The position numbers and the translations under genes are program-made. Below are positions 1-34,365 of a stretch of 36,996 bases of DNA, piece by piece (the stretch's first letter is position 1; the number at the start of each line of letters is the position of its first letter). Origin of the DNA: Bacteroidota bacterium (GTDB lineage Bacteria > Bacteroidota > Bacteroidia > UKL13-3). The stretch spans positions 1 through 36,996 of the forward strand of contig JAIYAT010000016.1 in the NCBI GenBank assembly GCA_027488905.1, in the 5' to 3' direction. The notes beneath the pieces are model-generated. The model did no database searches and was not told the DNA's origin. It saw nothing but the letters and a program-made list of their open reading frames with translations.

Positions 1-237
1 TATATACTGATAGGTGAACAGGATATTGATCCTAACTCAGATGGTTTGAGGCACAATGAAATTGTAGATAAACAAGGGTTGAACCGATTAACAAGAGCCC
101 AATACTTCTATACCCAATCCAGGGCAACAGCCAATCAGAGTGGGGCTGCCTTTAATTGGAAATATTACCCACTCAAAGGAGTTGCACATGATTTTTCAGC
201 GACATCAAATGCAGCGGCTATTTACTTTTATCAATAA
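1..237 (+). CDS. C-terminal end of an alpha/beta-hydrolase-like secreted protein (5' partial)
   Basis: The reading frame is open from base 1, so the gene begins upstream of the window; only the last 78 residues are visible. An in-frame TTG at 46 could be read as a start but is far too late to be real. The visible part contains an acidic loop near GEQDIDPNSDG and ends with GVAHD, a context typical of the catalytic acid and catalytic histidine of alpha/beta hydrolases (esterase or depolymerase-like secreted proteins). There is no T9SS sorting tail after the hydrolase end. It is followed 21 bp later by a T9SS-secreted protein in the same direction, so the two may be co-transcribed. A 9-bp GGTTGAACC repeat site lies at 77-85. 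The hydrolase assignment rests on a short fragment and is tentative. Confidence 0.5.
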   Translation, partial: YILIGEQDIDPNSDGLRHNEIVDKQGLNRLTRAQYFYTQSRATANQSGAAFNWKYYPLKGVAHDFSATSNAAAIYFYQ

Positions 238-258
238 ATTAAATTAAACAAATACAAC

Positions 259-1548
259 ATGAAAAGAATTCTTTTACCATTTTTCTTACTTGTGCTTTCA
301 ATGAATTTGAATGCACAAATGACTATTGAAAATTTTGCGTATGGCGCAACTTCTGGCACAAGTGCAGACACGCTCACCAATCCTGCTATAGGCGGAGGTG
401 TTTGGAGAAGACATAGCGGAACTACTGGACCAGTTGCTTACAAAGGAACTTCATTGAGTTATACTGGATATTCATCGTCTGGCGTTGGAGGTTCAGCTGG
501 ATTTACATTTGCTACTGGATTTGCAGAAGATGTTAATAGAGTTACAACCACATTTAATTCGGGTAGTGTTTATATTTCCTATTTACTAAGTATTTCAAAC
601 GCAGGTGGCACAGGAAGTTCTGATGCTTATTTCTTTCACTTGTTAGATACAAGTTTTATGACTGCATTTAGAGGCAGACAATTTATTAGGAATGGATCTG
701 TTGCTAATACGTTTAACATTGGCTTAGGCAAATCGGCTACATCTACACCAGCCTATTCAAGCGTAGATTACCCTCTAAATACACCAATTCTTGTTGTGAT
801 GAAATACACCTTTGACCCCTCAGCGCTAGATTCTGTTAGATGCTATATTTTCACTAGTGGTGTTCCTGCATCTGAACCTGCCACGGCACAAGTAATTGCA
901 ACAGATGTTTCTGCAACTGATTTAGCTAGAATAAACGCAGTTGCCATTAGGCAACACCCAACGGGTAGCACAATGATTGGAACTATTGACGGAATCCGTG
1001 TTTCTAATTCATGGGCCAACTCAGCGTTGCCTGTAAATTTAACCTCTTTTGAAGGTCAAATAACAGAACATCAAACCACTTTATTAACTTGGACTACCGC
1101 TTCTGAAATCAATAACAAAGGATTTGAAATTGAAAGTAGCCAAGACGGAATTAATTTTGAAACCATTGGATTTGCAGAGGGGGTTGGTAATTCAAAAACT
1201 ATTCAAAAATATCAATTCGAATATAACAGTAATACCAATGCTTATTACAGGTTAAACCAAATAGACTATGATGGAGAATCTACCTACTCTCAAGTGATTA
1301 CAGTTAAAAATCAAGAAAATGAAACTAAGTTAAGTCCAAACCCTTTCAATGATTTTATTGAAATAACAACCAATAGTCCAATCCAACGTGCCGAAATTAT
1401 TGACATTACAGGTAAAATAGTGATGAGCGAAAACTTAGAAAGTAATACAGTTAAATTAAACGCCAAAGAACTTTTAAATGGCATTTATTTCGTCAAGTTA
1501 TATCAAGGTGATGCAGTTATCACTAAGCGTATTATAAAAACGAATTAA
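259..1548 (+). CDS. Secreted protein with T9SS type A sorting domain
   Basis: A 429-residue exported protein. Residues 1-20 form a signal peptide ending LNAQ. Residues about 21-255 are rich in Gly, Ser and Thr and look like a beta-sandwich (LamG/concanavalin-like spacing), but I do not recognise the family. From about 256 (ALPVNLTSFEG) there is the Ig-like module common in Bacteroidota surface proteins, with TWTTASEINNKGFEIE and a YYRLNQIDYDG strand. The last 75 residues, beginning SPNPFNDFIEI and including a GIYFVKLYQGD-type strand, are a Por_Secre_tail sorting domain recognised by the type IX secretion system. The protein is therefore expected on the cell surface or in the medium. Its function is unknown. 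Transcription ends at the hairpin at 1571-1600. Confidence 0.85.
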   Translation: MKRILLPFFLLVLSMNLNAQMTIENFAYGATSGTSADTLTNPAIGGGVWRRHSGTTGPVAYKGTSLSYTGYSSSGVGGSAGFTFATGFAEDVNRVTTTFNSGSVYISYLLSISNAGGTGSSDAYFFHLLDTSFMTAFRGRQFIRNGSVANTFNIGLGKSATSTPAYSSVDYPLNTPILVVMKYTFDPSALDSVRCYIFTSGVPASEPATAQVIATDVSATDLARINAVAIRQHPTGSTMIGTIDGIRVSNSWANSALPVNLTSFEGQITEHQTTLLTWTTASEINNKGFEIESSQDGINFETIGFAEGVGNSKTIQKYQFEYNSNTNAYYRLNQIDYDGESTYSQVITVKNQENETKLSPNPFNDFIEITTNSPIQRAEIIDITGKIVMSENLESNTVKLNAKELLNGIYFVKLYQGDAVITKRIIKTN

Positions 1549-1553
1549 TACTT

Positions 1554-2846: not shown

Positions 2847-4079
2847 TTAAAACACCAATTGCACAAACAGGGCTCCAAGTAAGGTACGGTTTGAACCAAC
2901 TGTTAAATGAGTTAAAGAAGCATTGATTTTAAGATGGTTTGCTTGCACATATTTGGTAATGCCATAAGTTAGTTCTTGCTGGTCTTTTATAACAGAATTT
3001 TCATTTGCACCAAACTCTCTTTTGGTTGTAGCATAGCGAACATCAATGCCATATTTTTTACGAAACACATAACTTGCATGTGTATTAAAACCTCTTCCCA
3101 AGGCCAAATACTCACTGATTTGTGTCTGCTCTAATCGATTTAATCCAGTAGCATCTGAGTAAGCAATTTCTGGCATTTTTGCTGTGCCAATCACATACTC
3201 TGCCAATAAGGATATCCCCTTAAATTTAAACAAAACATCGTAATATAATTTTCTATAATCTGGCAATTGGTTTTTACCAAGGTTATTATACAACAAGAAA
3301 TTTCCATGGCCTTCACCAGTTACATGTGAAGCGCCTGTGTTATGGCTATATGCCGCACCCATCAACAACTTTGGTTTTGTTTCAAAGGATAAATCTGCAA
3401 GCATTTTATCATTACCCTCTGCAAAACTTCCAAAAGGTAAAACATCTATTCTTGCTGCATATTTAACACCACCCAAATCATAATCTGCACCGTTACTGCC
3501 AAAAGAATTCCTGCCATCACCAGAAGTAACTGAAGCTTTGGGCAAAATAAGTATATTTCCTAAACTTATTTCTGAGGCTAATACCAATCCAAACTCTCTG
3601 CCAGTTGCACTATATTGTGTGCTTAACAAACTCCTTTCTAAAAATTGCAAATTGGTTTCCATAAAGGTCATTTCGCGATTATTAGCAATGGCAAGATGTT
3701 GTCCAAAGGTTAGACTTAAATATTTACTGGGTGCATAAGCAACCCAGGCATCCAATAAAGGAGTTGCAAGGCTAAAGTCGGTTTGAACCAAAAATGAAAT
3801 TTTCTCTTTTTTGGCCTTTCCAGAAAGATTAAAAAAGGTTCTTTTAGAGTTTAGAAAATAGTTTGCATCTGCAGTGCTGTCTTTTCTAAAACTAACCTGT
3901 GGCTGCACCATCCCACCTATTCTAAATTGATAATCTCCATTGTTGAAATTAAACTGAAGTCCTTTACCCAACACCAAAGTATTGTCATCAGTTTGTGGAT
4001 TGTCTTGCGCCATTAGGTTCAAACCAAACAGTAAAAACAAACCTAATATTAGGCTCTTTGTTTTAGTATAATTTTTCAT
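2847..4079 (-). CDS. Porin of the Porin_O/P type
   Basis: 410 residues with a signal peptide ending LMAQ (about residue 25), then alternating amphipathic strands of an outer-membrane beta-barrel and a C-terminal phenylalanine (LFVQLVF), as expected for Omp assembly. The segments around RIGGMVQPQVSF, RTFFNLSGK and LLDAWVAYAPSKYLSLTFGQ are the usual pattern of phosphate-selective porin O/P-like proteins in Bacteroidota. It is similar in plan to the porin at 5607-6908 (same DAWVAY motif), so the two are probably paralogues. Its start overlaps the end of the upstream peptidase gene by 17 bp, which indicates translational coupling. Three exact GGTTYRAACC sites lie inside it (2888, 3780, 4016). The name phosphate porin should not be taken literally; the context suggests peptide or organic-acid passage. 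Confidence 0.8.
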   Translation of the reverse strand: MKNYTKTKSLILGLFLLFGLNLMAQDNPQTDDNTLVLGKGLQFNFNNGDYQFRIGGMVQPQVSFRKDSTADANYFLNSKRTFFNLSGKAKKEKISFLVQTDFSLATPLLDAWVAYAPSKYLSLTFGQHLAIANNREMTFMETNLQFLERSLLSTQYSATGREFGLVLASEISLGNILILPKASVTSGDGRNSFGSNGADYDLGGVKYAARIDVLPFGSFAEGNDKMLADLSFETKPKLLMGAAYSHNTGASHVTGEGHGNFLLYNNLGKNQLPDYRKLYYDVLFKFKGISLLAEYVIGTAKMPEIAYSDATGLNRLEQTQISEYLALGRGFNTHASYVFRKKYGIDVRYATTKREFGANENSVIKDQQELTYGITKYVQANHLKINASLTHLTVGSNRTLLGALFVQLVF

Positions 4080-5606: not shown

Positions 5607-6908
5607 TTAGAAAGTAAAAGTAGTCATGATGTTAGTGATAAACTCATTATTAGAAATTGGATTGTCAGCAATGTCAACACTACCAGCGCCAAGTTTAACA
5701 TAAGTAAAAGAACCTTGTATTTTAAAACCATAATTTCTACTCAGGTATTTAGACAATCCAATGGTATAATATTTTGGTCTATTATAAAACTTAGGATTAT
5801 TTAAGTATGAATTTACATCTGCATCTAACTGGGTATAGCGTGCATCTATCGAAAATTTACTCCTAAAAATATAACCCGCTTGAATGTTATAACCCTTGCC
5901 CAACATCATTCGGCCTTTTACATAATTGCTTACATCTTGCACACCATTTACTAGAAAAGTATTGGCAGTGCTTCCATCGTTTCTAACCCTAGTAGTAATA
6001 GTATTTGGCACTGTTGCCGTGCCATATAAAAACTCTCCTATAGCACTTAAACCTCTGTATTTAAATAGAAAATCTACACCATATTTTGTATAAGTTGGTA
6101 AGGCATTATTACCATTCTTATCTAAATAAAGTATGGCGCCACTTGCCTCACCTCGTCTGCTGCTAACACCCACGTTTTTGCTATAGGTAAAACCAATCAA
6201 AAGCTTTGGGGTTAATTCCCTTACAATATCACCTTGGCGAAATTGCCCCAAATTGCTAAACTTACCAAACGTTAATACATCTAACCTTCCACCGTATTTA
6301 AAACCACCAAGGTCCTTGTTAAAGGTATTCGGCCCATCACCATTTGTGAGAGTTAAAGCAGGTTTTAAGATAAGGTTTTGGTTGAACCTAACCTCGCCCG
6401 AAACAAAAAGTCCAAACTCTCTAAACACTGCAAATGCCGAGGTAAGCCTGCTCCTTTCGGGCAATTGCAGACTATTTGAAATCATAAGTATCTCCATATT
6501 TTCTGTGGGAGAAGAGCTTTGTCCGAATTTTATTTGCAAGAAATCAGTTGGGTCATAGGCCACCCAAGCATCAAAAAGCATGAAGCTGGTTTCATCACCA
6601 ATTTCGGGAGTGCCACTAAAATCTGCTTGCAAGCGATATTGTAGCTTATACTTAGGTAAATCACCAGAAAGTCTCAATCTTAACCTGCGCATTCTAAACC
6701 TTAAATAGGTATCTTGAATAGTATCATCATTATACTTTTTAATCTCTAAAGAAGGCTGAATAAAACCTGCAAGGGTATAAGTTGAGTTATGCTTGTCTGT
6801 AAATCTTAAACCTTCGCCTAAAGTGTATTTATTTAAGCTAGGGTTTTGGGTTGAACCAAGGAATGCTAAAAAGCAAAAAAACATAAAAAGAATAAATTGT
6901 TTTTTCAT
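5607..6908 (-). CDS. Porin of the Porin_O/P type
   Basis: A predicted outer-membrane beta-barrel of 433 residues. I start it at the ATG at 6908, giving MKKQFILFMFFCFLAFLGS as a signal peptide; a start ten codons earlier would overlap iadA and spoil the signal. The arginine-rich strand RFRMRRLRLRLSGD and the DAWVAYDPTDFLQIKFGQ segment match the Porin_O/P family, and the C-terminus ends in phenylalanine (MTTFTF). It is a probable paralogue of the porin at 2847-4079. It lies 7 bp downstream of iadA and 2 bp upstream of the M14 peptidase gene, inside the eight-gene operon. Two 9-bp GGTTGAACC repeat sites fall in it (6380-6388 and 6849-6857, the second in the signal-peptide region). Confidence 0.8.
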   Translation of the reverse strand: MKKQFILFMFFCFLAFLGSTQNPSLNKYTLGEGLRFTDKHNSTYTLAGFIQPSLEIKKYNDDTIQDTYLRFRMRRLRLRLSGDLPKYKLQYRLQADFSGTPEIGDETSFMLFDAWVAYDPTDFLQIKFGQSSSPTENMEILMISNSLQLPERSRLTSAFAVFREFGLFVSGEVRFNQNLILKPALTLTNGDGPNTFNKDLGGFKYGGRLDVLTFGKFSNLGQFRQGDIVRELTPKLLIGFTYSKNVGVSSRRGEASGAILYLDKNGNNALPTYTKYGVDFLFKYRGLSAIGEFLYGTATVPNTITTRVRNDGSTANTFLVNGVQDVSNYVKGRMMLGKGYNIQAGYIFRSKFSIDARYTQLDADVNSYLNNPKFYNRPKYYTIGLSKYLSRNYGFKIQGSFTYVKLGAGSVDIADNPISNNEFITNIMTTFTF

Positions 6909-8055: not shown

Positions 8056-9419
8056 AGGCCAAAATGGTATATTAACAAGGTTAGTAAAACAGCGCCAATC
8101 GGAATTAAATTTCGTTTGACAATATCCATTACAGGAACACCTGCAACGTTTGCGGTTGCAATTAAAACACCAGCAATCGGACTAATGGCTCTACCCATTG
8201 AGGCAGATAAATTCATGGGTAAAAGTATGGAAGTGCTAGAAACACCAAACTGCTTGGCTACATTTGGAATAAGCGGACCAAAAGCAAAGAAAGCTGCATT
8301 GCCACTTCCCATCAATATGGCAGCAAAAAATATCATCAAAGTCATGATAATACCAATTCCTTTTGCGTTCAAACCAACCCCTTGAGACAAAGCAATAAGG
8401 CCATCCATAAAACCCAAAGCTATTAAGCCACTGGCAAATATCTCTGCCACGATGATAAGCGAGACCACCGATTTAAACATCTCTCCCATGCCATCTAAGA
8501 ACACTTTAAAAGAGGCAAACAAAGCTTTACTGTTTTTGGTTCGAACCAACTCAAAAAACATCCCAACAAACAAACTAATTAGCATTGCAGTGGTAGTTTC
8601 TATTTTAAGCTTAATTGGAAACACTTCAAATACGCCAGAAAAAGTAAGCAATAAGATTAAAGGTAACACTGGTAGCAAAGCATAAATGGAAGGAGCAGCT
8701 TCACTTGTCTTTGGTTTTTCTTGTATTTCTATGGGTGCTAATTCATCTTTTTTGTCGAAGTACTTATTGACAAAAAAGTAGGAAACCATTAAAACTACAT
8801 TTAGAATAATAGCAATTGGAATTTGTTGATTGATAAAATAGGGAACTGTTTCTATTTGGGCAATTTCAACAGCAGAAGCAGTAATTACGGAGGCCGGACC
8901 GATGCAAAAAGAGGTGCATCCTGTGATAATGGAAACTGCAGCTAACCTGCTTACACCTAAATTGACTAAAATTGGAAATACAGAAGCCATCAATAACAAA
9001 CCAAAACCTGCGGCAGAAGGCACACAAATAAAGATAAGTTGCCCAATTGGAATAACAGCCACAGCAGTAATGTTTGGATAATTTTTTAGAAAAGCCAATG
9101 GTCTAAGGGCTGCTTTTACCAAAGCTTCAGATGCGCCAATTTTGTCCATATAGGCCACAAAGCCACCAATGGTCATAATCATTAAACCAACATTGGCATT
9201 TGTTTTAGAAAAAGCAGATTGAATAAACTCAAAAATATCCAAAAGTACAAAGCCAGAGCTAGGTTCTACATCCGGAACGCTTTGTTTCATAAAGTTTGCA
9301 GCAAGCAACATAGCAATGCCAGCGATCAACAAAACTGCTTGAGGGAAGAAATCCTTCAGCAGCAATCTTGCCACAATTACAATGAATACAATAGAAATGG
9401 CTAACCCTGCAAACAACAT
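8046..9419 (-). CDS. dcuC: DcuC-family anaerobic C4-dicarboxylate carrier
   Basis: 457 residues with about 12 hydrophobic segments. It resembles DcuC: VGLMIMTIGGFVAYMDKIGA, AAGFGLLLMASVFPILVNLG, an ILMGSGNAAFFAFGPLIP loop and SASMGRAISPIAGVLIAT near the C-terminus. DcuC carries out succinate efflux and fumarate/succinate or aspartate exchange; related members move other acids, so the substrate is not certain. It is directly upstream of and overlaps iadA, and 12 bp downstream of the lamin-tail lipoprotein gene. Together with the DctA-type symporter at the other end of the operon, the cell would have two C4-acid carriers in one transcript, perhaps one for uptake and one for exchange. One exact GGTTCGAACC site is at 8538-8547. 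Confidence 0.8.
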   Translation of the reverse strand: MLFAGLAISIVFIVIVARLLLKDFFPQAVLLIAGIAMLLAANFMKQSVPDVEPSSGFVLLDIFEFIQSAFSKTNANVGLMIMTIGGFVAYMDKIGASEALVKAALRPLAFLKNYPNITAVAVIPIGQLIFICVPSAAGFGLLLMASVFPILVNLGVSRLAAVSIITGCTSFCIGPASVITASAVEIAQIETVPYFINQQIPIAIILNVVLMVSYFFVNKYFDKKDELAPIEIQEKPKTSEAAPSIYALLPVLPLILLLTFSGVFEVFPIKLKIETTTAMLISLFVGMFFELVRTKNSKALFASFKVFLDGMGEMFKSVVSLIIVAEIFASGLIALGFMDGLIALSQGVGLNAKGIGIIMTLMIFFAAILMGSGNAAFFAFGPLIPNVAKQFGVSSTSILLPMNLSASMGRAISPIAGVLIATANVAGVPVMDIVKRNLIPIGAVLLTLLIYHFGLCF

Positions 9420-10406: not shown

Positions 10407-12344
10407 TTAATTTTTAACCACTTTATACCTTACCCATTGTGAGTTCACGCTTAAATCTATCAAATAAATGCCTGGCTGCAAATTGCTCATGTCTACTTGC
10501 TGAGCAATGACTTGGCCTTCCATAAGCAGTTTTCCTTGAATTGAATATATGGTGTAAGTCGCTATAGGCATATTAGAGTTAATACTTAAATAGTTTTCAA
10601 CTGGATTTGGATATACTTTTAAGTTAACTTTTTGAACTCCTTCTAATCCATTACTTTGCCCCGAGATAACAACATTTTTACTACCTTCTATTCCGCTTCC
10701 ATCTTTGGCTGTTGCTTTTACTCGAACCGTTCCATTTGCCAATGCAGTTAATAATCCTGTTGCCGAAATGCTAGCTAAATTTGTATTGTTAACTGACCAT
10801 GTTACTTCTTTATTTTCTGCATTTATTGGCAAAACACTAGCAAGCATTTGCAAGGTACCATTGTTTTGAGTGATAGTAGAATCATTGTTTTGACCCGAAA
10901 CCACAATGGAGCTTACTTTTGCACCCTCACAAATTGGAAAAATGCAATCTGAATCAAAAATGGTTGTGCTACTATCAGTGCAATTAACGTCACCTACAAT
11001 CCATTTACCAGCGGCATTTTTATAAGCCCATGCGCCTGTATATTCCCAATCTTCGCCAGAGCCGTCTACATTTACATCCCCAAAGGTTTCGATGGACTCA
11101 CCTACTCTAAACAATTCAATAGCATCATTTCCATTTTGGTTTACAACGCCAAAAGTATCAACCAAGACAACAGTAAATTTCGACCAACAACTACTCATGT
11201 AAGTAGCCAAAGCAGCACTGTCTCTTGCCAAAACAATCTGACTTCCCAGCGGCACAGAAATAGCTGGAAAACGATATTCTTGGCCGTCTGTGCCACCTCC
11301 ATTATTTGCAATCCCCAAACCATAAATACTCAAATTTGGAATAGCTGCATCTGCAACCAAGTAAATGGCTTTGCCAGATGAACCTGCAGCGGGTGTAATA
11401 AAATCTGTTACTCCTTTTAATGACAATTGATTGGTGCAACGTGAACAAGATTCAAAGCAAGCATTACTTAAAGAAGAATCTGCTTTAACAATCGCAAACC
11501 TATAGATGGTTGCGCCTTCAAATTTCGTACAAATGCTAACACTGGTAAATTGCTCTTGCAAATAATTAGCAGCAGATTTATAGGCAAACTTATAAGTGAG
11601 CGTATCATTAGTTAAAGGCAAGGTTAATTCCCACAAACCATCTTTGTTAGCATCTGTCAAAGGATTACAAGTATTGCAATATTGGTTGAAATTTCCTGTT
11701 ATAAATACGCTATCAACCGCAGTAGGCAAAGCATTAACATCTACTTTAAAAGTTATCTGTTTACTTGGCGTTGTAATAAAACTGCCACCATTAACCTTCC
11801 TACCAGGTGTGAATTTAGAAATATTTACAGTGGTGTGCTGCACAAATGCTCCCGTTAAATCTGGATTTCTGGTGTAGGACTCATTAGGATTATTTGACAA
11901 TGCATCGGAGTTAAAAATAAGAATCGTTTTGCCTGTGCTGTCTTTAATTACAATTACTTCACCACTGTTATTTAGGCTCAAACCAGAAACCCCTGTATCT
12001 GCTAAAACAAGCGCACCACCAAAAAGTCCAACCGGTTTGCCACCACCAAAAACTACCAAAGCACCTTGAGGAGGAAGGATAGTTCCATTTGGGATGGTAT
12101 AAACCATGGTACCAGTTAAAGTATCATCCCAAATTTGATAGCCGCTGAGGTTAAGACTTGCAGTACCTATGTTTACAAACTCAATAAATTCATCCTGTGT
12201 TTGGTCGTAAAAACCGTCTCCATTGGCATCTCCTTCCAACAGTGTATTAGATGGATCATACAATACTTCATTGATGATCAGTTGAGCTTGTGAATTTGCG
12301 CTCAATAAAAGTGAAAAAAGAAATAGAAATAAAATTCTTTTCAT
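10407..12344 (-). CDS. T9SS-secreted multidomain protein with lamin-tail domains
   Basis: 645 residues counted from the ATG at 12344, which gives signal peptide MKRILFLFLFSLLLSANSQAQ; an upstream in-frame extension has no signal and is rejected. Domains in order (residues in this numbering): LTD about 20-190 with the D-rich loop EGDANGDGFYDQTQDEF; a carbohydrate-binding-like beta domain about 195-290 (ITFKVDVNALP, FITGNFNQYC); a second, divergent LTD-like region about 300-465 with several cysteines; a bacterial Ig-like (Big_2) domain about 475-560 (VTWSVNNTNLASIS); and a T9SS type A tail from about 570 (VYPNPVENYLSI). It should be secreted or anchored at the surface. It is the first gene of the minus-strand operon, so its upstream region (12345-12449) is the likely operon promoter, shared with the divergent MocR gene. 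Confidence 0.8.
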   Translation of the reverse strand: MKRILFLFLFSLLLSANSQAQLIINEVLYDPSNTLLEGDANGDGFYDQTQDEFIEFVNIGTASLNLSGYQIWDDTLTGTMVYTIPNGTILPPQGALVVFGGGKPVGLFGGALVLADTGVSGLSLNNSGEVIVIKDSTGKTILIFNSDALSNNPNESYTRNPDLTGAFVQHTTVNISKFTPGRKVNGGSFITTPSKQITFKVDVNALPTAVDSVFITGNFNQYCNTCNPLTDANKDGLWELTLPLTNDTLTYKFAYKSAANYLQEQFTSVSICTKFEGATIYRFAIVKADSSLSNACFESCSRCTNQLSLKGVTDFITPAAGSSGKAIYLVADAAIPNLSIYGLGIANNGGGTDGQEYRFPAISVPLGSQIVLARDSAALATYMSSCWSKFTVVLVDTFGVVNQNGNDAIELFRVGESIETFGDVNVDGSGEDWEYTGAWAYKNAAGKWIVGDVNCTDSSTTIFDSDCIFPICEGAKVSSIVVSGQNNDSTITQNNGTLQMLASVLPINAENKEVTWSVNNTNLASISATGLLTALANGTVRVKATAKDGSGIEGSKNVVISGQSNGLEGVQKVNLKVYPNPVENYLSINSNMPIATYTIYSIQGKLLMEGQVIAQQVDMSNLQPGIYLIDLSVNSQWVRYKVVKN

Positions 12345-12417: not shown

Positions 12418-12451
12418 ATACCAATTATTAAAATATTTAAATACCAATTAT
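12418..12451 (+). promoter_or_regulatory. Direct-repeat operator of a MocR-type regulator
   Basis: ATACCAATTAT occurs twice in the same orientation, at 12418-12428 and 12441-12451, 23 bp apart from start to start (about two helical turns). The second copy overlaps the ATG of the MocR gene. The whole block is also framed by GGCATA (12415-12420) and TATGCC (12449-12454). Known MocR regulators such as GabR bind direct repeats containing ATACCA, so this is probably the regulator's own binding site. Its place just downstream of the -7 box suggests autorepression, with possible control of the divergent operon. The binding is inferred. Confidence 0.65.
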
Positions 12452-20550: not shown

Positions 20551-20560
20551 GGTTCAAACC
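20551..20560. repeat. Intergenic copy of the GGTTYRAACC palindrome (longest arms)
   Basis: GGTTCAAACC sits within TTCGGTTCAAACCGAA (20548-20563), a 16-base palindrome except for the central pair. It is in the 89-bp gap between the His-rich protein gene and the pump gene, which is otherwise A/T-rich without other recognisable signals. It might form part of the 5' leader of the pump mRNA or simply be one of the dispersed copies. Confidence 0.8.
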
Positions 20561-20604
20561 GAAACCTTAATAAAAAACACAAAAAGTGAAGAAAAGAAAA
20601 GGAA

Positions 20605-21102: not shown

Positions 21103-21864
21103 ATGAATAAACTTGTTTCAATTATTCTTTTGTTTTTAATAATTTCGCTAAATGGCAATGCCCAAAGGCATCACGAAAGTAAAGATGTCATTCAGAATTT
21201 TGTTCGGGTTGAACCAAAATTATATGCGTGTAAATTTGAAACCACCAATGCAGATTACCAAGCATTTTTACAGGATATTATTCAAAGAAGACCAGAATTA
21301 AAATATACCTTAATTTTGGATACAGCAAAATGGCGCAATGAAAAAAGTGTAAATAAAAAACTGCAAAAGAAATATTTCAATTCGTCAAAATATGCTGCCT
21401 TTCCGGTGGTCAATATTAGCTATGAGCAGGCTAATTTTTATTGTAACTGGTTAACCCAAATGTATCACTTAAACCCAGAAAGACCCTTTAAGAAAGTGGT
21501 TTTTAGGTTACCCAGCAAGCAAGAATGGAATAGGGTGGTTTATGGAGCCACCGCCACAGATAGTTTTCCTTGGATAGGTAGTTTCAAAGAAAAGCCTAAG
21601 CACCTAAAAATAAACAATGGGCGAGTTAATAGCCCATATTTGAAAAAGGTAAATAAAAAACAATACGAGCAAGGAAACATATTGCTTTATCATGCTTTAG
21701 GAAATGCAAGCGAAATGGTAAGCAGCAAAGGGGATTGTGTAGGTGGAAATTTTGCTTCGCACCCCTATTTCTTTAGCAAAGACAGCCAAAATGAATTTTT
21801 CCCTGCGTATGTGCCTTGCCCATTGGTGGGTTTCAGGGTTTTTATGCAAATTATGATAGAGTAA
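21103..21864 (+). CDS. Exported FGE/SUMF1-domain protein
   Basis: 253 residues with a signal peptide ending NGNAQ (about residue 20). The remainder follows the formylglycine-generating-enzyme (FGE-sulfatase) fold: KFETTNADYQAFL at about 45-57, FPVVNISYEQANFYCNWLTQ, the RLPSKQEWNRVVYGA block, LGNASEMV and the C-terminal VGFRVFM. In Bacteroidota this fold is often used structurally (for example GldJ and GldK of the gliding/T9SS machinery) rather than as an enzyme. The copper-binding cysteine pair of true FGE is not evident. It diverges from the His-rich protein gene with a 102-bp shared upstream region, and a DUF805 gene follows after 25 bp. The physiological role is unknown. Confidence 0.75.
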   Translation: MNKLVSIILLFLIISLNGNAQRHHESKDVIQNFVRVEPKLYACKFETTNADYQAFLQDIIQRRPELKYTLILDTAKWRNEKSVNKKLQKKYFNSSKYAAFPVVNISYEQANFYCNWLTQMYHLNPERPFKKVVFRLPSKQEWNRVVYGATATDSFPWIGSFKEKPKHLKINNGRVNSPYLKKVNKKQYEQGNILLYHALGNASEMVSSKGDCVGGNFASHPYFFSKDSQNEFFPAYVPCPLVGFRVFMQIMIE

Positions 21865-26934: not shown

Positions 26935-27990
26935 ATGGATTCGCAAGAGTTACATCAAAAATTATCAAAAAGTGTAAAACAACTGATGTGGGTGCTTGCA
27001 ACACTAGCACTTACATTGGTTATTGCTGTAATACTTTATTTTAATAGAGAAGGTTTGAACCAAAAGTTAAATGGAGAAAATACTGAAGCAACAGACTCGG
27101 TTCAAACCGAAAAAAAAGAAACTGCCTTTTGGCAGGCGGTGGACCTTAATTTAATTAAAGACCCAGCACAAAAAGAACTTGTATGGTATGGCAAGGAATT
27201 AATAAGCCATACTTCTAAATATTTAGGACCTAAAGGTAGTGTTACCCAAATTAGCAATGGCATGAATTGCCAAAACTGCCACCTCGATGCTGGCACAAAG
27301 GTGTTTGGCAACAACTACGGCTCAGTGGCTGCAAACTACCCAAAATTTAGGGCCAGAAGTGGCACAGAAGAAGACATTTACAAACGTGTGAATGATTGCT
27401 TTGAAAGAAGTTTAAATGGTAAAGCTTTAGACACCTTAAGCAAAGAAATGCAAGCCATCAAAGCTTATATTACTTATATTGGATCAAACACAGAAAAAGG
27501 AAAAAAAGCAGAAGGATCTGGTTTCAAAGAATTGGCATTTTTAGACAGGGCAGCCGACCCCAAAAAAGGTAAAGAAATTTATGCAGCCAAATGTCAAAGT
27601 TGCCATCAGGCAAATGGGCAAGGCTTGCTAAATGCAGAAGGAACTGAATATAGTTTCCCTCCATTGTGGGGAAAACACGCGTATAATGATAAAGCTGGTT
27701 TGTTTAGAATTACTTTTTTTGCCCGTTACGCAAAATACAATATGCCCTTAGGCGCATCACATGAAAACCCCCAATTAACTGATGAAGAAGCTTGGGACAT
27801 TGCTGCATTTGTTAATTCGCAACCTAGGCCTACCAAGGCAACGCCAAACGATTGGCCAGATATTTCACAAAAACCAATCGATCATCCATTCGGACCATAT
27901 ACCGATGGGTTTTCTGAAACACAACACAAATTTGGACCTTTCAAACCCATTAAGGCGGCTAAGGAAGCTTCCACCAAAAAACAATCTTAA
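26935..27990 (+). CDS. tsdA: TsdA-like dihaem thiosulfate dehydrogenase, membrane-anchored
   Basis: 351 residues with an uncleaved-looking N-terminal anchor (about 18-37). Two c-type haem sites are present: NCQNCH (C112, C115, H116) and KCQSCH (C220, C223, H224). The segment NGMNCQNCHLDAG, followed by RVNDCFERSLNG with C155, is characteristic of TsdA, where that cysteine is the unusual axial ligand of haem 1. M270 in KYNMPLG may serve haem 2. TsdA oxidises two thiosulfates to tetrathionate, passing electrons to a c-type cytochrome or quinone pool; some homologues work in reverse. The protein should face the periplasm. Two exact GGTTYRAACC sites (27052 and 27099) lie 47 bp apart in the linker after the anchor. 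Confidence 0.88.
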   Translation: MDSQELHQKLSKSVKQLMWVLATLALTLVIAVILYFNREGLNQKLNGENTEATDSVQTEKKETAFWQAVDLNLIKDPAQKELVWYGKELISHTSKYLGPKGSVTQISNGMNCQNCHLDAGTKVFGNNYGSVAANYPKFRARSGTEEDIYKRVNDCFERSLNGKALDTLSKEMQAIKAYITYIGSNTEKGKKAEGSGFKELAFLDRAADPKKGKEIYAAKCQSCHQANGQGLLNAEGTEYSFPPLWGKHAYNDKAGLFRITFFARYAKYNMPLGASHENPQLTDEEAWDIAAFVNSQPRPTKATPNDWPDISQKPIDHPFGPYTDGFSETQHKFGPFKPIKAAKEASTKKQS

Positions 27991-28002: not shown

Positions 28003-29430
28003 ATGAAAAAGTTTCATGCAATGCTGCTGTTAATGGCACTTGTTTTTTTCGGTTTGACCCAAACCCTGATGGCGCAAAATTTACCCTATCAGCATTATAC
28101 TGAAAGAGACCAAAATCCTACAGACACCAATAACCTGCAACACTTCTTTAGAAATGGGAGTTTTTATGGACATGCCCGCTATTACACCTCTTTTACTGAT
28201 AATGCCGATGATTTAAGTGATTACTTTGCCAATGCTTTTGGAATGGGAATAGGATACGAAACAGGAAAGTTTAAGAACTTTCAAATTGGCATCAGTGGAT
28301 TTTTCATTTATAACTTATACTCATCAAATCTTGCTAAACCCGATCCATTAACTGGATTGCTTTCTAGGTATGAATTAGGTCTATTTGACATGGAAAACCC
28401 AAACAATCATAAAAACCTAGATAGATTAGAAGACTTATACATTAAATATAATTACAAAAAATCGAATGTTAAATTTGGCAAGCAACACATTAGAACCCCT
28501 TTTATAAATCCGCAAGATGGCAGAATGAGACCTACTCTAGTGGAGGGGATTGTTCTTAACTATAATGAGGTAAAGAACACACGATTGGATATCGGCTTTT
28601 TGTACAAAATTTCTCCAAGAAGCACCATTAAATGGTTTGAGATTGGCGAGTCTATTGGTATTTTTGCCAGTGGCTTAAACCCTGATGGCAGTAAATCAAA
28701 CTATGCAGGCAATCTAAAAAGTAATGGGGCTTTCTATGCAGGTATTACGCACCAATTGAAAAAGCATCACGATTTTCAAGTTTGGAACCTTTATGTAGAG
28801 AATATCTTTAATACGAGCCTTGTTCAATACAATGGAAGTTTTAACTTCAAGAATAAAACAAAACTAAATTTAGGTCTTCAAGGGATAATGCAGCAAGCCA
28901 TCAATGATGGTGGTAACCAAGACCAAAGTAAAACCTATATGCTTAAAGATAATAAGTCATATACCTATGGTGCAAGACTTGAAATTGCTAAAGAAAAAAC
29001 AGGTTCATTCCAACTTAACTATAATAGAATTACTGAACATGGAAGGTATCTGATGCCAAGAGAATGGAGCCGCGACCCCTTCTTTACCTTTATGCCAAGA
29101 GAACGCAACGAAGGCTATGCAAATGTACATGCTGTAAATGCAGTAATAGGGAAAAGCTACGGCAAATCTGGTTTTAGAAGCGATTTTAGCTATGGAAGAT
29201 TTTATATGCCAGATGTAAAAAACCCCGAAATGAATAAATACGCTTTCCCTTCCTATTGGCAGTTTAATGCTGATATACGCTACAAAGCACATAGGTTTTT
29301 TAAGGGATTTGACTTACAACTTTTGTATGTTTACAAAGGACAAATGGGAGACAATTACAAAAACAACAGATACGTTTTTAATAAGGTTGACATGAGCTTA
29401 TATAACTTTGTTATCAACTACCACTTTTAA
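28003..29430 (+). CDS. OprD-like outer-membrane porin of the sulfur cluster
   Basis: 475 residues with signal peptide ending TLMAQ (about residue 25) and repeated amphipathic strands ending with YNFVINYHF, a typical beta-barrel C-terminus. The segments GSFYGHARYYTSFTDN, KSNVKFGKQHIRTPF and PREWSRDPFFTFMPRERNEG resemble the OprD-type outer-membrane channels of Bacteroidota. It lies 12 bp after the TsdA-like gene and 10 bp before the SoxB-like gene and is probably co-transcribed, which suggests a channel for thiosulfate or tetrathionate. The substrate is inferred from position only. Confidence 0.75.
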   Translation: MKKFHAMLLLMALVFFGLTQTLMAQNLPYQHYTERDQNPTDTNNLQHFFRNGSFYGHARYYTSFTDNADDLSDYFANAFGMGIGYETGKFKNFQIGISGFFIYNLYSSNLAKPDPLTGLLSRYELGLFDMENPNNHKNLDRLEDLYIKYNYKKSNVKFGKQHIRTPFINPQDGRMRPTLVEGIVLNYNEVKNTRLDIGFLYKISPRSTIKWFEIGESIGIFASGLNPDGSKSNYAGNLKSNGAFYAGITHQLKKHHDFQVWNLYVENIFNTSLVQYNGSFNFKNKTKLNLGLQGIMQQAINDGGNQDQSKTYMLKDNKSYTYGARLEIAKEKTGSFQLNYNRITEHGRYLMPREWSRDPFFTFMPRERNEGYANVHAVNAVIGKSYGKSGFRSDFSYGRFYMPDVKNPEMNKYAFPSYWQFNADIRYKAHRFFKGFDLQLLYVYKGQMGDNYKNNRYVFNKVDMSLYNFVINYHF

Positions 29431-29440: not shown

Positions 29441-31156
29441 ATGACAACTTCTTCTAAAAATGAAAATTCACCTAGGCGCAGCTTTATTAAATCTTTAGGA
29501 AAAATTGGACTTGGTGCTGGCCTTATTCCAACGCTACCAGCCATGGCTGCTGCAGAGGAGTTAGAAAACTCAGAAGTTGGAGGAGAAAAACCTTCGGATA
29601 AAGAAGTAGTTGTTCAAATACTACAAACCACCGATGTGCATTGTCAAGTTTATCCGCATGATGAGTTGTTTTGGGAAAACGATAAAGCAGTTTTTAGAAA
29701 AGCGGGTGGCTATGCGCATTTATCTACCTATCTAAAAAAAGAGAAAAAGAAAAACCCAAATACCTTTATAATAGATACTGGTGATATGTTTCAAGGCAGC
29801 GCTTTGTCTGGAAAAACCACGGGCAAGGCAATGGTTCCTATTTTAAATGCACTAGATTATAACCTTTATCTGCCCGGAAATTGGGAAGTAATTTTTGGCA
29901 AAAGAAATATGCAAACCTTAATGGGAGCCCTACAAGCCCCAAAAGTTTGTGCCAACATGTACCACGATTTAGGTGAAGGCAAAAAAGGCGAACTAATTTT
30001 TCATCCCTATCATATTTGGAATGTAGCAGGAATTAAAATTGGTTTCCTAGGATATACAGATCCATTGGTACCTATAAGACAATCACCAAACTATAGCAAA
30101 GGAATTCTTTATACCAAGCCAGAAGAAAATTTAAAACACTATGTTGAAGTATTAAGAAATGACGAACAATGTGCTTTCATCATAATACTTTCTCATCTAG
30201 GCTTATCCCAACAAATAGCCTTGGCCAATAACCCAGACTGCGAAGGTGTAAATTATATTTTAGGTGGTGATACACATGAAAGGGTAAGGAAACCCATTCA
30301 ATGCAAATACTCAAAAGTGGTTGAACCTGGAGCCTTTGGTTCATTCATAGGCAAACTGCAACTAACCATAAAAAATGGCAAAGTAATTTCAGATAATTAT
30401 TTGCTAGATGAATTAAGTCCTGAAAATTATAAAGCAGACCCCATATTGAGTAACATCATCAAGGAAAATGAACTCCCATTTAAAGAAGAAATTTCACAAA
30501 TAATAGGTTACAGCACTTTGCCCTTGTATCGCTACTTTGTAATAGAAAACACCATCGACACCATGGTGTTAAACGCACTTGCCTGGCAAATGCCTGAAGT
30601 GGATATTGTACTTTCCAATGGCTTTAGGTTTTGCCCTCCAAAGAGCACCCCAGACCATACTGGCAACATCCCCATCAACAATGGCTTTATTTATGATATG
30701 CTGCCTGTAGATAGCAACTTAAAAACAGGCGAAATTACTGGAAAGCAATTGTTAGAGTGGCTAGAAAAAGAACTAAACAATGTGTTTGCCAAAGATGCCT
30801 CGAAACGTTTTGGTGGTTGGGTGATTAAATTTCAAGGGATGCAAATTGAGTTTAAAGCTTTTGAAGCCATGGGAAAAAGGGTTCAAAAAGTATTGGTTAA
30901 AGGAAAACCTATTGATGAAAATGCCATTTATAAAATATGTGCTTGCGAGCGTGATGGCGACCCTGTGGATATGCTTTGTAGAATTAAAGGCGTTGCAAAT
31001 CCAATAACACATTCTTTTACCTTGCACAAAACCATGAAAGACTACCTCATTAAAAACTCACCTGTTACGCCTACTTTGCCTTTAAATGCTAAAATTTTAG
31101 ATGGACCACAAACTTTATTAACCCAAGTTTATGGTGTAGACTATAACTTTAGGTAG
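29441..31156 (+). CDS. soxB: SoxB-like thiosulfohydrolase/5'-nucleotidase-family protein, Tat-exported
   Basis: 571 residues from the ATG at 29441; an upstream TTG extension overlaps the porin gene. A twin-arginine signal SPRRSFIKSLG begins at residue 10. The metallophosphoesterase core shows QTTDVHCQ (D65, H67), DTGDMFQGS (D112, D115), PGNWEVIFG (N147) and LSHLG, then GGDTHERV where 5'-nucleotidases have GGHTHD. The NWE in place of NHE and the ERV after the last motif resemble SoxB rather than ordinary nucleotidases. The C-terminal half is the 5'-nucleotidase domain (SNGFRF). SoxB hydrolyses sulfate off SoxYZ-bound thiosulfate in the periplasm, yet no SoxYZ gene is nearby. It is the last clear sulfur gene of the cluster. 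Confidence 0.75.
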   Translation: MTTSSKNENSPRRSFIKSLGKIGLGAGLIPTLPAMAAAEELENSEVGGEKPSDKEVVVQILQTTDVHCQVYPHDELFWENDKAVFRKAGGYAHLSTYLKKEKKKNPNTFIIDTGDMFQGSALSGKTTGKAMVPILNALDYNLYLPGNWEVIFGKRNMQTLMGALQAPKVCANMYHDLGEGKKGELIFHPYHIWNVAGIKIGFLGYTDPLVPIRQSPNYSKGILYTKPEENLKHYVEVLRNDEQCAFIIILSHLGLSQQIALANNPDCEGVNYILGGDTHERVRKPIQCKYSKVVEPGAFGSFIGKLQLTIKNGKVISDNYLLDELSPENYKADPILSNIIKENELPFKEEISQIIGYSTLPLYRYFVIENTIDTMVLNALAWQMPEVDIVLSNGFRFCPPKSTPDHTGNIPINNGFIYDMLPVDSNLKTGEITGKQLLEWLEKELNNVFAKDASKRFGGWVIKFQGMQIEFKAFEAMGKRVQKVLVKGKPIDENAIYKICACERDGDPVDMLCRIKGVANPITHSFTLHKTMKDYLIKNSPVTPTLPLNAKILDGPQTLLTQVYGVDYNFR

Positions 31157-31948: not shown

Positions 31949-32003
31949 ATTAAAAACATAACGAACAAACAACTTTTAACTTCATAATAAAAAATTAGGT
32001 TCA

Positions 32004-32013
32004 GGTTTGAACC
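32004..32013. repeat. Intergenic copy of the GGTTYRAACC palindrome
   Basis: GGTTTGAACC, 45 bases upstream of the start at 32058, in a 109-bp non-coding gap (31949-32057). An incomplete half copy, GGTTC, lies 9 bases before it. No clear TAnnTTTG promoter was found in this gap. Confidence 0.8.
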
Positions 32014-32057
32014 AAACTTTAGTTGAAGTGTATAACAAGCAACAAACATATTTTGCT

Positions 32058-33233
32058 ATGAAATTACAATCAACATTTCTTATTCTTTTATTGAGCTTTT
32101 CGGCTTTGGGTCAAACCGAAAAACCAGAACCCATTCTTGGATTTGCCATTGAACTAAAACCTACAGAATGGTATTTAAAACAACAACAACTTTGGAAACA
32201 AGTCTTAGATAAAGACAAATCCAATGCCGCCGCTTGGTACAATTATTACCGGGTAAGCAGAAACCTAAGTAGAACCAATCCAGACGAAAAAAGAAGCAAA
32301 GGTGCTATTGACACAGCACTCACAGAAATAGTAAATGAAATGGAAAAACATGTATCCAAATCTTATGAATTCAACCTTTGCAAATGGTTAATTGGCGGCA
32401 ATAGCTTAGAAAACAAAAAATATTTACTCAAAGCCATTGAATTGGGCGAAGGCAAAGCAGAACACCTCCCTGATGCTGTTATACTTTACGAACAAGAAAG
32501 AAACCTTGCTAAAAAAGCTGCATTCTTACAAAAATGGTTAGACTTGGGCGCCTATTCTCCTGGCCTTATGTATTATAATTACAATGTTTTAATTAGCCTT
32601 GAACCAAATGCCATTCTAATTTCAAATGGCGATAACGATACGTATCCTATTTGGCTATTACAACAACGCGGCATTAGAAAAGATGTAACCTTGCTTAATT
32701 CCAGCTTGCTATATTTGGACGACTACAGAAACAAGATGTTTGCAGAACTTGGTCTAAAACCATTTGAGCCTTTTAAAAAGCCTTTTCCTATTACGATGGA
32801 AGAATACGAAGCTGGCGAAAAAAGAATGAGAACTGAGATGTTAGATATTCTATCTCAAAACAAATACAAATCTCCTGTTTATATTGCAGTAACCTGCGGC
32901 GACTTATATGCAAAAGAGAATCAAGATAACTTTTACCTAACTGGATTAACCTATCAATATAGCAAAACCAATATTGACAATATTGCTTTGTTAAGAAAGA
33001 ACTTTGAATTGAATTACGCTTTAGATTACCTAGATAAGGAGTTCTATTTTGACCTAAGCAGTTACTATGCCAAGGAAAGTAACATGAACTATATAATTCC
33101 TATGGTTAAACTTTGGGAACACTACAAATTGTGTGGAGAGAAAAGTAAAGCCGATAAAATAAAACTTCAGATATTGAGTATTGTAAAAGGCAGAGCGGAA
33201 GAAAAGGAAACAGCCGATTATCTTAACCAATAA
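32058..33233 (+). CDS. Exported protein of unknown function, TPR-like, with NGDNDT motif
   Basis: 391 residues starting at the ATG at 32058, which gives signal peptide MKLQSTFLILLLSFSALGQ; an earlier TTG frame (32007) runs through a repeat site and is rejected. The N-terminal half is helical and TPR-like (EWYLKQQQLWKQVLDKD, NAAAWYNYYRVS). In the middle, NAILISNGDNDTYPIWLLQQ followed by RGIRKDVTLLNSSLLYLDDY resembles a segment found at the C-terminus of some DUF2723-type membrane proteins. The molecular role is unknown. The sigma-factor gene begins 3 bp downstream, so this protein and the ECF sigma/anti-sigma pair are probably one operon and may share a stress or envelope function. Confidence 0.7.
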   Translation: MKLQSTFLILLLSFSALGQTEKPEPILGFAIELKPTEWYLKQQQLWKQVLDKDKSNAAAWYNYYRVSRNLSRTNPDEKRSKGAIDTALTEIVNEMEKHVSKSYEFNLCKWLIGGNSLENKKYLLKAIELGEGKAEHLPDAVILYEQERNLAKKAAFLQKWLDLGAYSPGLMYYNYNVLISLEPNAILISNGDNDTYPIWLLQQRGIRKDVTLLNSSLLYLDDYRNKMFAELGLKPFEPFKKPFPITMEEYEAGEKRMRTEMLDILSQNKYKSPVYIAVTCGDLYAKENQDNFYLTGLTYQYSKTNIDNIALLRKNFELNYALDYLDKEFYFDLSSYYAKESNMNYIIPMVKLWEHYKLCGEKSKADKIKLQILSIVKGRAEEKETADYLNQ

Positions 33234-33236
33234 AAA

Positions 33237-33773
33237 GTGTCTCAAACTGACGAGCAGTTATATCAAGCGTTATTGCAAGGCAACCAGCAATCGTTTTCAA
33301 ATTTGTATCACAGATACTTTGATAAACTATGCTGGTTTGCCCAGCAATTTATGTACAACAAACAAGAAGCAGAAGACATTGTGCAGGAAGTGTTTACCAA
33401 AATTATTGAGCAGCCACATCATTTTGATGCCAATCAAAAATTTAGCACATGGGTGTTTACCTTAACCGCTAATCGCTGCAAAAACCGTTTAAAACAACAG
33501 GCTACACAAAGCAATTTAATAAGTCAACATACTTCTTCAGACCAAAGCGTAAATGCAAGTATAGAATTGGATGCTAAATTGCTTAAAGCCCAAATTAGGG
33601 AAATTTTTGCATCACTAAATGAGAAAGAGAAAAAACTATTTGTGTTAAAATTTGAACAACACTTGAGCACAAAAGAAACCTCAGAAATACTAAACATTCC
33701 AGAAGGCTCTGTTAAATCTGGTTTGTTTTATCTACTTAAAAAAATTAAAGAAAAGCTAAACTATCATGGATAA
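33237..33773 (+). CDS. ECF-type RNA polymerase sigma factor
   Basis: 178 residues starting with GTG at 33237, three bases after the preceding stop. Region 2 is at about 20-87 (YFDKLCWFAQQFM, EAEDIVQEVFTKII, KFSTWVFTLTANRC) and region 4 at about 117-172 (LNEKEKKLFVLKFEQHLSTKETSEILNIPEGSVKSG split over two helices). There is no long extension. It should direct transcription of a small regulon. It overlaps the next gene by 8 bp, typical of a sigma/anti-sigma pair. The target promoters are not known. Confidence 0.9.
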   Translation: MSQTDEQLYQALLQGNQQSFSNLYHRYFDKLCWFAQQFMYNKQEAEDIVQEVFTKIIEQPHHFDANQKFSTWVFTLTANRCKNRLKQQATQSNLISQHTSSDQSVNASIELDAKLLKAQIREIFASLNEKEKKLFVLKFEQHLSTKETSEILNIPEGSVKSGLFYLLKKIKEKLNYHG

Positions 33774-34365
33774 TTTTAATAGCGAAAAACTGTATGACCT
33801 ATTGGTTCAAAACAAATTTGAAAGATTAACCGCAGAGGAACAAGCTATTGTTTTGCAAGCCATGTCTTTAGAGGAGTTTACAGCATTACAAAACTTAAAT
33901 AAGGCAGTTTCTGGTTTGAACCAAAGCCGAAAAGACAGCATAGAAGAATTGCTATTGGATAAGCTTCCAACGCCAAAGCCAACAAAACTATTCTGGCAAA
34001 GTACTATTCCAATATGGCAAGCGGCAAGCATTTTAGTGGTGACCATTTTAGGGCAATTGGTTTTAAGCAATAGCTACAAAAAAGAAGGAGGAATGCAAAC
34101 CGCAATGATAGACACCGTTTGGATAGAAAAGCCTATTGAAAAACGCGTTACAGATACCGTATTTGTTTGGTCTACTAAAAACAAACAACTTAAACCAAAA
34201 CAAAAAGAAGACCTTCAAATAAGGCAAATCAGAAATAGAAAATCAGAAACAGCGCAAAGTATAATAAAGGCTCCAGGCAATTTAGGAGAACATCGGAATA
34301 GACTAAACAGTTTAAACCTAGCAGAAGATAGTGTTTTGTTAACTATTGGTTTTGTGAGGTTGTGA
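33766..34365 (+). CDS. Putative anti-sigma factor, single-pass membrane protein
   Basis: 199 residues with a cytoplasmic N-terminal half (about 1-80), one membrane segment (WQAASILVVTILGQLVLSN, about 85-103) and a basic, Lys/Arg/Gln-rich tail outside. The start overlaps the sigma-factor gene by 8 bp, which together with the topology suggests an anti-sigma factor, although no zinc-binding HxxxCxxC motif is present. An exact GGTTTGAACC site lies at 33913. Function is inferred from position and topology. Confidence 0.65.
   Translation: MDNFNSEKLYDLLVQNKFERLTAEEQAIVLQAMSLEEFTALQNLNKAVSGLNQSRKDSIEELLLDKLPTPKPTKLFWQSTIPIWQAASILVVTILGQLVLSNSYKKEGGMQTAMIDTVWIEKPIEKRVTDTVFVWSTKNKQLKPKQKEDLQIRQIRNRKSETAQSIIKAPGNLGEHRNRLNSLNLAEDSVLLTIGFVRL

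Follow-up and report, generated by a model that had tools for sequence, protein, structure and literature searches.

The genomes of one genus of uncultured lake bacteria contain a short word in about a thousand copies or more, and the over-representation of its palindromic core, GGTTYRAACC, first seen in a window of 36,996 nucleotides (the whole stretch of DNA that was analysed), is confirmed as genuine. The present data allow a model, whose chances are judged a little short of even, in which these sites constitute a chromosome-wide mark read by a dimeric DNA-binding protein. A fuller proposal, offered tentatively and at somewhat below an even chance, is that the word represents a new self-mark, a 14-bp quasi-palindrome evolved within the genus, present in at least a thousand copies and in dialects, whose reader would belong to none of the three methyltransferase families tested and to no type IV pilus, and which would serve nucleoid organization or self/non-self discrimination.

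A recount of the window agrees with the original prediction on 14 exact copies of GGTTYRAACC (seven GGTTTGAACC, five GGTTCAAACC, two GGTTCGAACC and no GGTTTAAACC) and on six copies of the 9-bp form GGTTSAACC, but the ten one-mismatch copies reported earlier proved to be 22, versus 10 for the reversed pattern. The extended form TTYGGTTYRAACCRAA is present in four exact copies. Under a third-order Markov model of the window, GGTTTGAACC/GGTTCAAACC is the top-scoring 10-mer, with 12 copies against 0.185 expected, and the over-representation thus stands. Across the 3.55 Mb genome, GGTTYRAACC occurs 880 times versus 61 for the reversed control, in keeping with the genome-wide, iterated, HIP1-like palindrome in Bacteroidota that had been proposed. 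Codon use is no explanation for the copies in genes, as the 11 copies observed in the window genes compare with a mean of 0.59 and a maximum of 4 in 200 codon shuffles, and 88 copies in genes with a mean of 9.6 and a maximum of 17 (200 shuffles). The Markov model and the codon control had both been named in advance as tests that could refute the word, and neither did. Further, marked information stops about 3-4 bases outside the core and most copies lie in genes, on which grounds a dispersed mobile repeat (REP-like) was rejected; with the codon control, this bears out the earlier view that the word is neither a protein motif nor a mobile repeat.

As a consensus, GGTTYRAACC captured the palindromic core but was too narrow, the actual motif being a palindrome of 14 bp in which some positions are free, T-N-GG-N-T-YR-A-N-CC-N-A (TNGGNTYRANCCNA), found 128 times in 420 kb of DNA from this genome versus 2.5 expected, a 51-fold excess. 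Its fixed positions are palindromic, and its centre and flanks are asymmetric. The halves are unequal, the stronger being TTGGTTCA and the other varying in dialects by species around a common core. A freely varying YR centre, as first described, does not hold: TG/CA forms the centre of 104 of the 110 YR-centred copies in the 420 kb, so that most copies are not exact palindromes. In the specificity profile, positions 2 and 5 are tolerated, and substitutions at T1, G3, G4 and T6 are near background. Unlike halves (C.T with T.C) are preferred, in 32 of the 110 YR-centred copies here and in 30 of 64 in the related genome G013, and in G004, with the dialect form TTGGTTCAGACCAA, the palindrome is often broken by a second half that reads G-N-C-C.

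Within the window, GGNTYRANCC occurs 24 times, 17 of these as full TNGGNTYRANCCNA; the start of each exact GGTTYRAACC is given here in brackets after the 14-bp coordinates. Full sites with an exact core are TTGGTTCAAACCAA at 1552-1565 (1554), intergenic between converging genes, and again at 14818-14831 (14820); TCGGTTTGAACCAA at 3778-3791 (3780) and TAGGTTTGAACCAA at 16224-16237 (16226), at each of which G009 differs by one base; TAGGTTCAAACCAA at 4014-4027 (4016); the exact palindrome TTGGTTCGAACCAA at 8536-8549 (8538) and 16508-16521 (16510); TTGGTTTGAACCAA at 17345-17358 (17347); and TCGGTTCAAACCGA at 20549-20562 (20551), intergenic, and at 27097-27110 (27099). The core is also present in ACGGTTTGAACCAA at 2886-2899 (2888), AAGGTTTGAACCAA at 27050-27063 (27052), CAGGTTTGAACCAA at 32002-32015 (32004), at or just before a gene start, and CTGGTTTGAACCAA at 33911-33924 (33913). 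Degenerate copies that are full TNGGNTYRANCCNA comprise TTGGGTTGAACCAA at 6846-6859, TGGGTTCAACCCGA at 14393-14406 and TCGGGTTGAACCAA at 21204-21217, which correspond to the 9-bp forms at 6849, 14395 and 21207, as well as TTGGCTTGAACCGA at 16040-16053, close to five weight-matrix hits at 16037-16505, TTGGTTCGATCCAA at 19518-19531, TCGGTTTGACCCAA at 28049-28062 and TTGGGTCAAACCGA at 32106-32119. Further degenerate copies are AAGGGTTGAACCGA at 74-87, a GGNTYRANCC site corresponding to the 9-bp form at 77, TAGGCTCAAACCAG at 11973-11986 and the weak GTGGCTTAAACCCT at 28670-28683, with a TA centre. The 9-bp forms had been counted as members of the family, which is correct for four of the six in the window (and 24 of 44 in the 420 kb), these being the same 10-bp site in another register. 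The other two, both GGTTGAACC (6380-6388 and 30319-30327), do not fit this register and are of uncertain membership, and because the same is true of 20 of the 44, the spacing of the site may not be fully fixed.

Among the genomes searched, the site is confined to one genus. All 19 genomes of the genus are enriched in GGTTYRAACC, as against none of the 45 genomes drawn from 13 other genera of its family; a broader form of the motif has 754 copies in this genome versus at most 21 in each of 394 other Bacteroidota genomes, and 477 kb of DNA from the family outside this genus contain four copies of TNGGNTYRANCCNA, versus 2.4 expected. Enrichment in G015 is 174 versus 14 for the whole genome, yet only 3.7-fold in its 80 kb sample. 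In sister genera, 20 stretches totalling 377 kb (nine genera, in sets of 26-80 kb) yielded no analogous word of this strength. The same samples contained tandem repeats in G021, simple CAA repeats in G086 and, in the 40 kb from G031, 8 copies of the word ACAG-N3-CTGT versus 0.5. Viral stretches carry TTTGGTTCAAACCGAA once each in 21 cases, which is about chance level by our own estimate, and 1-2 GGTTYRAACC per stretch. Among open-licence papers, searched by title, no description of these words, or of iterated palindromes or uptake sequences in Bacteroidetes, was found. Within the genus, copies are kept in place by selection or by an equally strong restoring bias: in alignment with G005, 25 of 32 sites are still exact, motif identity is 0.941 versus 0.762 in the flanks, and the free positions are likewise conserved above the flanks (140 of 160). 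Of the synonymous third positions, 75 of 80 inside sites match a relative, versus 4876 of 8431 elsewhere in those genes (p 1e-12).

The sites are dispersed over the part of the chromosome that was sampled, both in genes and in gaps, and show no polarity. In this genome, their density is highest between converging genes (five sites in 2.4 kb, versus 0.23 per kb in coding DNA), as would be expected of a mark whose exact position matters little. Orientation is 384 forward and 370 reverse genome-wide, a sum that would hide a bias flipping at the origin, and 123 versus 104 without clear runs over 500 kb of one G004 contig; polar sites of the Chi or KOPS type were rejected on the basis of these counts. 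Counts per 20 kb are near Poisson (variance/mean 0.96 here, 0.69 in G004 and 1.42 in G009) and reveal no regional bias in the stretches sampled. No clear close pairs or regular spacing were found in this genome, G013, G004 or G005, where neighbours within 60 bp number 1, 9, 4 and 0, respectively, versus 5.0, 4.2, 4.9 and 0.5 expected. That 91 of 109 placed sites in this genome lie inside genes argues against an operator function under an ordinary transcription regulator, such as one of the GntR/HutC type, a reading that appears very improbable. GntR/HutC operators resemble TTGGT-N4-ACCAA, to which the site is akin in shape; GntR domains are present in 9 of 12 genus genomes versus 2 of 12 others tested, and the single GntR protein of this genome is encoded inside the window. 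However, G001, G002 and G014 have no PF00392 match and yet carry 471, 436 and 216 copies, and with three of the 12 genus members thus lacking it, GntR was rejected as universal reader, unless these assemblies miss it.

It is also conceivable, although improbable, that the word is a HIP-type palindrome tied to a methyltransferase of a family beyond the three searched, or to enzymes that differ between species. The site is palindromic, highly iterated and located in genes and gaps, like HIP1 (PMC4390886), and this genome (G000) has C5 methyltransferases. The methyltransferase recognition site of the original prediction is nevertheless weakened, because no enzyme of the three main families is common to the genus: N6/N4 (PF01555), C5 (PF00145) and D12 (PF02086) enzymes exceed the cut-off in 6 of 17, 6 of 19 and 7 of 19 genus genomes, respectively, and G006, G007, G008, G010 and G014 have none over the cut-off, yet 157-487 copies (G010 being only 84% complete). 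In addition, degenerate inner positions and dialects, both present here, are unusual for DNA methyltransferases. Alternatively, the sites may themselves have no function and may have arisen near a recognition motif as by-products of a mutational ratchet, such as biased mismatch repair, a scenario given little credence here. Such a ratchet would scatter sites all over the genome without polarity and could shield existing sites from change. However, a ratchet of the kind proposed for HIP requires a methylated core (PMC4390886), whereas the three methyltransferase families provide no genus-wide enzyme; further, a ratchet would have difficulty in producing a 14-bp site in which some positions are fixed, others are free and the second half differs between species.

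A further alternative, unlikely but of appreciable probability, is a DNA-uptake (self-recognition) sequence that biased uptake and recombination would have spread, as in Neisseriaceae and Pasteurellaceae, but through a receptor that is not a type IV pilin. Equal orientations, random spacing, an excess between genes and limitation to one genus are consistent with this, as are species dialects around a shared core; PMC3630211 describes such dialects for DUS, together with overlapping DUS pairs of dyad symmetry in Simonsiella. An uptake mark, as originally suggested, keeps some probability, since all 17 genus genomes searched have ComEC, although genera that lack the site have it just as regularly (44 of 45). 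The suggestion is weakened because a PilB/PilT-type (T2SSE-family, PF00437) ATPase passes the cut-off in none of 62 family genomes, weak matches below it occurring in 40 of the 62, where most of them cover only a short part of a frame several hundred residues long. We know of no receptor type for uptake sequences other than type IV pilin, which would here be without its motor, since PF00437 is below cut-off in all 62 genomes. Two further observations speak against uptake. There is no sign that newer DNA is poorer in sites, as density is 0.85 per kb in DNA unaligned to G005 versus 0.75 in aligned DNA. In a comparison of six genus with six outgroup comEC loci, the G000 locus has two frames (538 and 583 aa), M1 peptidases by Pfam, that recur in all five other genus loci and in no outgroup locus, and two more, an M28 peptidase and a DUF1223 protein, found in genus loci only; the genus-only genes looked up there are not DNA-binding genes, and a MerR-type regulator at the locus is also present in outgroups.

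Among the three functions suggested originally, a nucleoid or chromosome protein is preferred. The repeated word would be the putative binding site of a sequence-specific DNA-binding protein, presumably one that belongs to the genus and acts as a dimer; a homodimer with one well-fitted and one tolerated half-site would yield the strong TTGGTTCA half and a weaker partner. No reader protein was found, GntR (PF00392) being the one regulator family tried as a candidate. The sites may work as a collective, marking or anchoring the whole genome for chromosome organization or maintenance, and not as gene switches, an architectural role that we infer from their distribution only. A plain homodimer would not be expected to prefer unlike halves, which counts against this reading, as do the second half in G004 and the conservation of the free positions.

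Few lineages are known with short words repeated a thousand times across the genome. Among the genomes searched, the present word belongs to one genus, is conserved at synonymous positions and has dialects, and the tests made here revealed neither of the usual companions, a shared methyltransferase and a type IV pilus. Its sharp taxonomic boundary makes the reader protein searchable by phylogenetic profiling, and profiling across that boundary makes the origin of such words directly testable. Like the DUS/USS of Neisseriaceae and Pasteurellaceae, the word is lineage-limited, occurs at about one per kb with degenerate copies included, in both orientations and with an intergenic excess, and has dialects of a core; unlike them, it is quasi-palindromic, and there is no sign of a ComP-type receptor system, because no T2SS/T4P-type ATPase exceeds the cut-off in the family. 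In MatP/matS, Noc/NBS and SlmA/SBS, too, a dimeric protein has palindromic sites dispersed through coding DNA, as the putative dimeric reader would here, but those sites number tens of copies with regional bias, whereas here there are about a thousand or more, free of regional bias in the stretches sampled. HIP1 of cyanobacteria, the reason for which is still under discussion (PMC4390886), has a different sequence, whereas the present word has asymmetric halves and free inner positions, is limited to one genus among the genomes searched and has no genus-wide methyltransferase in three families; in both cases, however, a short palindrome is highly iterated chromosome-wide, in genes and gaps, with variants that replace one another between species.

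The fourteen exact copies of GGTTYRAACC and six of GGTTSAACC claimed for the window were confirmed at their positions, and when the window was scored against its own third-order Markov model, GGTTTGAACC/GGTTCAAACC ranked first among 10-mers, counted 12 times against 0.185 expected. Across the genome holding the window (G000; 3,551,629 bases in 40 contigs), GGTTYRAACC occurs 880 times against 61 for the pattern read backward, and in a 420 kb sample GGTTCAAACC/GGTTTGAACC reaches 104 against 1.77 expected. The excess also withstood codon control: upon 200 synonymous shuffles within each of 337 genes, 88 observed copies compared with a mean of 9.55 and a maximum of 17, and thus the signal is unexplained by codon and amino-acid use (the reversed control gave 8 against 3.7, maximum 8). 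Weight-matrix matches numbered 438 per 420 kb of G000 DNA versus 89 in reversed sequence, and extrapolation from this matrix, which was trained on the same DNA, gives a genome total of perhaps 3,000 sites. Most motif statistics other than whole-genome counts rest on samples of G000 (420 kb) and of its relatives G009 (220 kb), G005 (150 kb), G013 (193 or 233 kb), G004 (500 kb), G003 (120 kb), G015 (60 or 80 kb) and G018 (60 kb).

The free YR centre of the original prediction was not borne out, as TG/CA occupies 104 of 110 YR-centred G000 copies (CG and TA, 3 each). The halves are coupled, TTCGGTTT with TTTGGTTC being the commonest pair, which yields the oriented form TTTGGTTCAAACCGAA; T stands at position -2 in 96% of copies in G000, 100% in G013 and 93% in G005. 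Single substitutions of TTGGTTCAAACC in G000 DNA are common at positions 2 and 5 and scarce at T1, G3, G4 and T6, and read palindromically this profile gives TNGGNTYRANCCNA, with 128 observed against 2.5 expected in G000, 68/1.3 in G009, 39/0.8 in G005, 78/1.6 in G013, 68/2.8 in G004, 10/0.8 in G003, 3/0.2 in G018 and 2/0.4 in G015, versus 4 against 2.4 in 477 kb from other genera. Single-base departures at the four fixed half positions are still enriched 1.3- to 7.5-fold. The half TTGGTTCA is retained in other species with a different partner half, and these combinations are species dialects; in 226 copies from G004 this half is followed by AACC (26), GACC (13), GGCC (13), GCCA (12) and GCCC (9), and 9 of 14 sampled exact copies in G003 have a CG centre. 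As for the GGTTSAACC forms, 24 of 44 in G000 (4 of 6 in the window) proved to be the same site in another register; the remaining 20 are not. In G000 and G013 together, 11 copies of GGTTCAAACCGAAACC were seen, in which a third half-like ACC follows the site at 6 bp. Other repeated words were encountered in G015 (GTACATCGTA; L198-L200), G004 (CGTAATTCGT; L204-L231), G021 (ACTGATTACT/CAGTAGACAG, probably local tandem arrays; L178-L179) and G031 (ACAG-N3-CTGT, 8 times in 40 kb; L182-L183).

Among 62 to 64 family genomes, some incomplete, GGTTYRAACC was enriched in 19/19 of the genus (64 searched), whose counts run from 109 to 1424 (28 to 347 per Mb) and exceed the control 5.3- to 26-fold, and in 0/45 from 13 other genera, where counts of 6 to 67 never pass 17 per Mb and the ratio to control is highest in G060 (21 vs 9) and G064 (67 vs 46). 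Other families of the class (23 genomes) held 3 to 26 copies, several exceeding small controls (for instance 19 vs 3, 24 vs 7, 14 vs 5). In a phylum sample of 395, the broader pattern TTGGTTCARNCC occurs 754 times in G000 against 9 for the control, and its total in the other 394 Bacteroidota genomes is at most 21 (control in that top genome, 16), with a modest excess in a few, such as G286 (17 vs 2). Judged by Era, the named records closest to the window are metagenome-assembled or uncultured; several have lake or pond titles, several carry the label 'Chitinophaga pinensis', and none of the Era matches of at least 64% identity (L067-L085) is a cultured strain by title. Metagenome genomes with that label (L067, L073, L081) encode Era 68-100% identical to the window's, and the label looks doubtful. 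Just upstream of era, a tRNA-Met (35915-35987, minus strand) explains why a short stretch there is 92-96% identical to relatives, against about 70% for their coding DNA.

The sites are conserved in place. Exact GGTTYRAACC copies of G000 remain exact in 44 of 50 aligned cases in G009 (92-95% identical over aligned parts) and 25 of 32 in G005 (77-79%), identity inside the motif versus its flanks being 0.986 vs 0.926 and 0.941 vs 0.762, respectively; control permutations (6/9 and 0/6) were too few for comparison. TNGGNTYRANCCNA is kept in 52/58 and 31/40 cases, and the reciprocal searches gave 52/59 and 31/36, so that conservation does not depend on the genome searched. Where the amino acid is unchanged, third positions within sites match G005 in 75/80 cases versus 4876/8431 elsewhere in those genes (Fisher p 1.1e-12), and G009 in 123/128 versus 11796/13586 (p 0.0008). 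Fixed positions are kept somewhat better than free ones in G005 (300/320 vs 140/160, p 0.023), with no significant difference in G009 (p 0.28), and free positions are also conserved above flanks (818/1106). From this positional and synonymous conservation it follows that the sites are maintained, through selection or an equally strong restoring process. Density in G000 is 0.23 per kb in genes (long open frames from simple ORF calls), 0.47 in tandem, 0.58 in diverging and 2.1 in converging gaps, the last being 5 sites in 2.4 kb; in G013 it is 1.5, 0.27 and 1.2 in tandem, diverging and converging gaps, and densities of small gap classes are rough. No strand polarity was visible genome-wide in G000 or in a contig sample of G004, spacing has a CV of 0.89 to 1.09, and counts per 20 kb are nearly Poisson. 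Five weight-matrix matches fall within 470 bp (16037-16505) at the junction of an efflux pump and a membrane-fusion gene; a five-match cluster also occurs in G009 (L157 866-1334) and dense matches in G013 (L210 4372-5360), and such clusters may be chance. The minus-strand frame at 16187-20515 encodes an AcrB-type RND efflux pump (residues 5-1033) and then an outer-membrane efflux protein domain (1273-1439), so that pump and channel are apparently fused.

Taken as a whole, absent polarity, scatter through genes, excess in little-constrained DNA and positional conservation point to sites that may act collectively in a chromosome-wide role, and the palindromy of the fixed positions suggests a dimeric protein as the putative reader that would bind them. 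We tentatively favour, at a little less than an even chance, a chromosome mark read by such a protein. Three methyltransferase families were rejected as a shared reader, none being common to the genus: of 17 genomes of the genus searched, 6 had PF01555 (N6/N4) above cut-off, with no match in G000 or G005, and of 19 searched, 6 had PF00145 (C5), G000 included, and 7 had PF02086 (D12), where the frame of G013, the genome with most sites, has two internal stops. G006, G007, G008, G010 and G014 have none of the three above cut-off, yet hold 157 to 487 copies. Two neighbouring C5 frames of 423 and 766 aa lie on opposite strands at G000:C27:346689-352454, in a family that is not genus-wide. That the sites are tied to a methyltransferase of a further family is unlikely. 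A GntR protein as genus-wide reader was likewise discarded, the domain (PF00392; 9/12 genus genomes vs 2/12 others tested) not being found in G001, G002 and G014; the sole G000 match is a plus-strand MocR-like regulator with GntR and class I/II aminotransferase domains (12450-13931). A role as DNA uptake mark, suggested by the same overall picture in uptake sequences, is rather improbable, as PF00437 (type IV pilus/type II secretion ATPases), the pilus motor, exceeded the cut-off in 0/62 genomes, with weak matches in 40; ComEC is present in 17/17 genus genomes and 44/45 others. Uptake sequences have dialects and even dyad pairs, according to PMC3630211, and dialects are shared with the present site; however, a pilus motor was not found with it. 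HIP1, tied to methyltransferases according to PMC4390886, is likewise similar, but for the present site no genus-shared enzyme of the three families was found. Because neither motor nor shared enzyme was found, GGTTYRAACC is placed outside both the HIP1 and the uptake-sequence class and is filed as a 'highly iterated short genomic word'.
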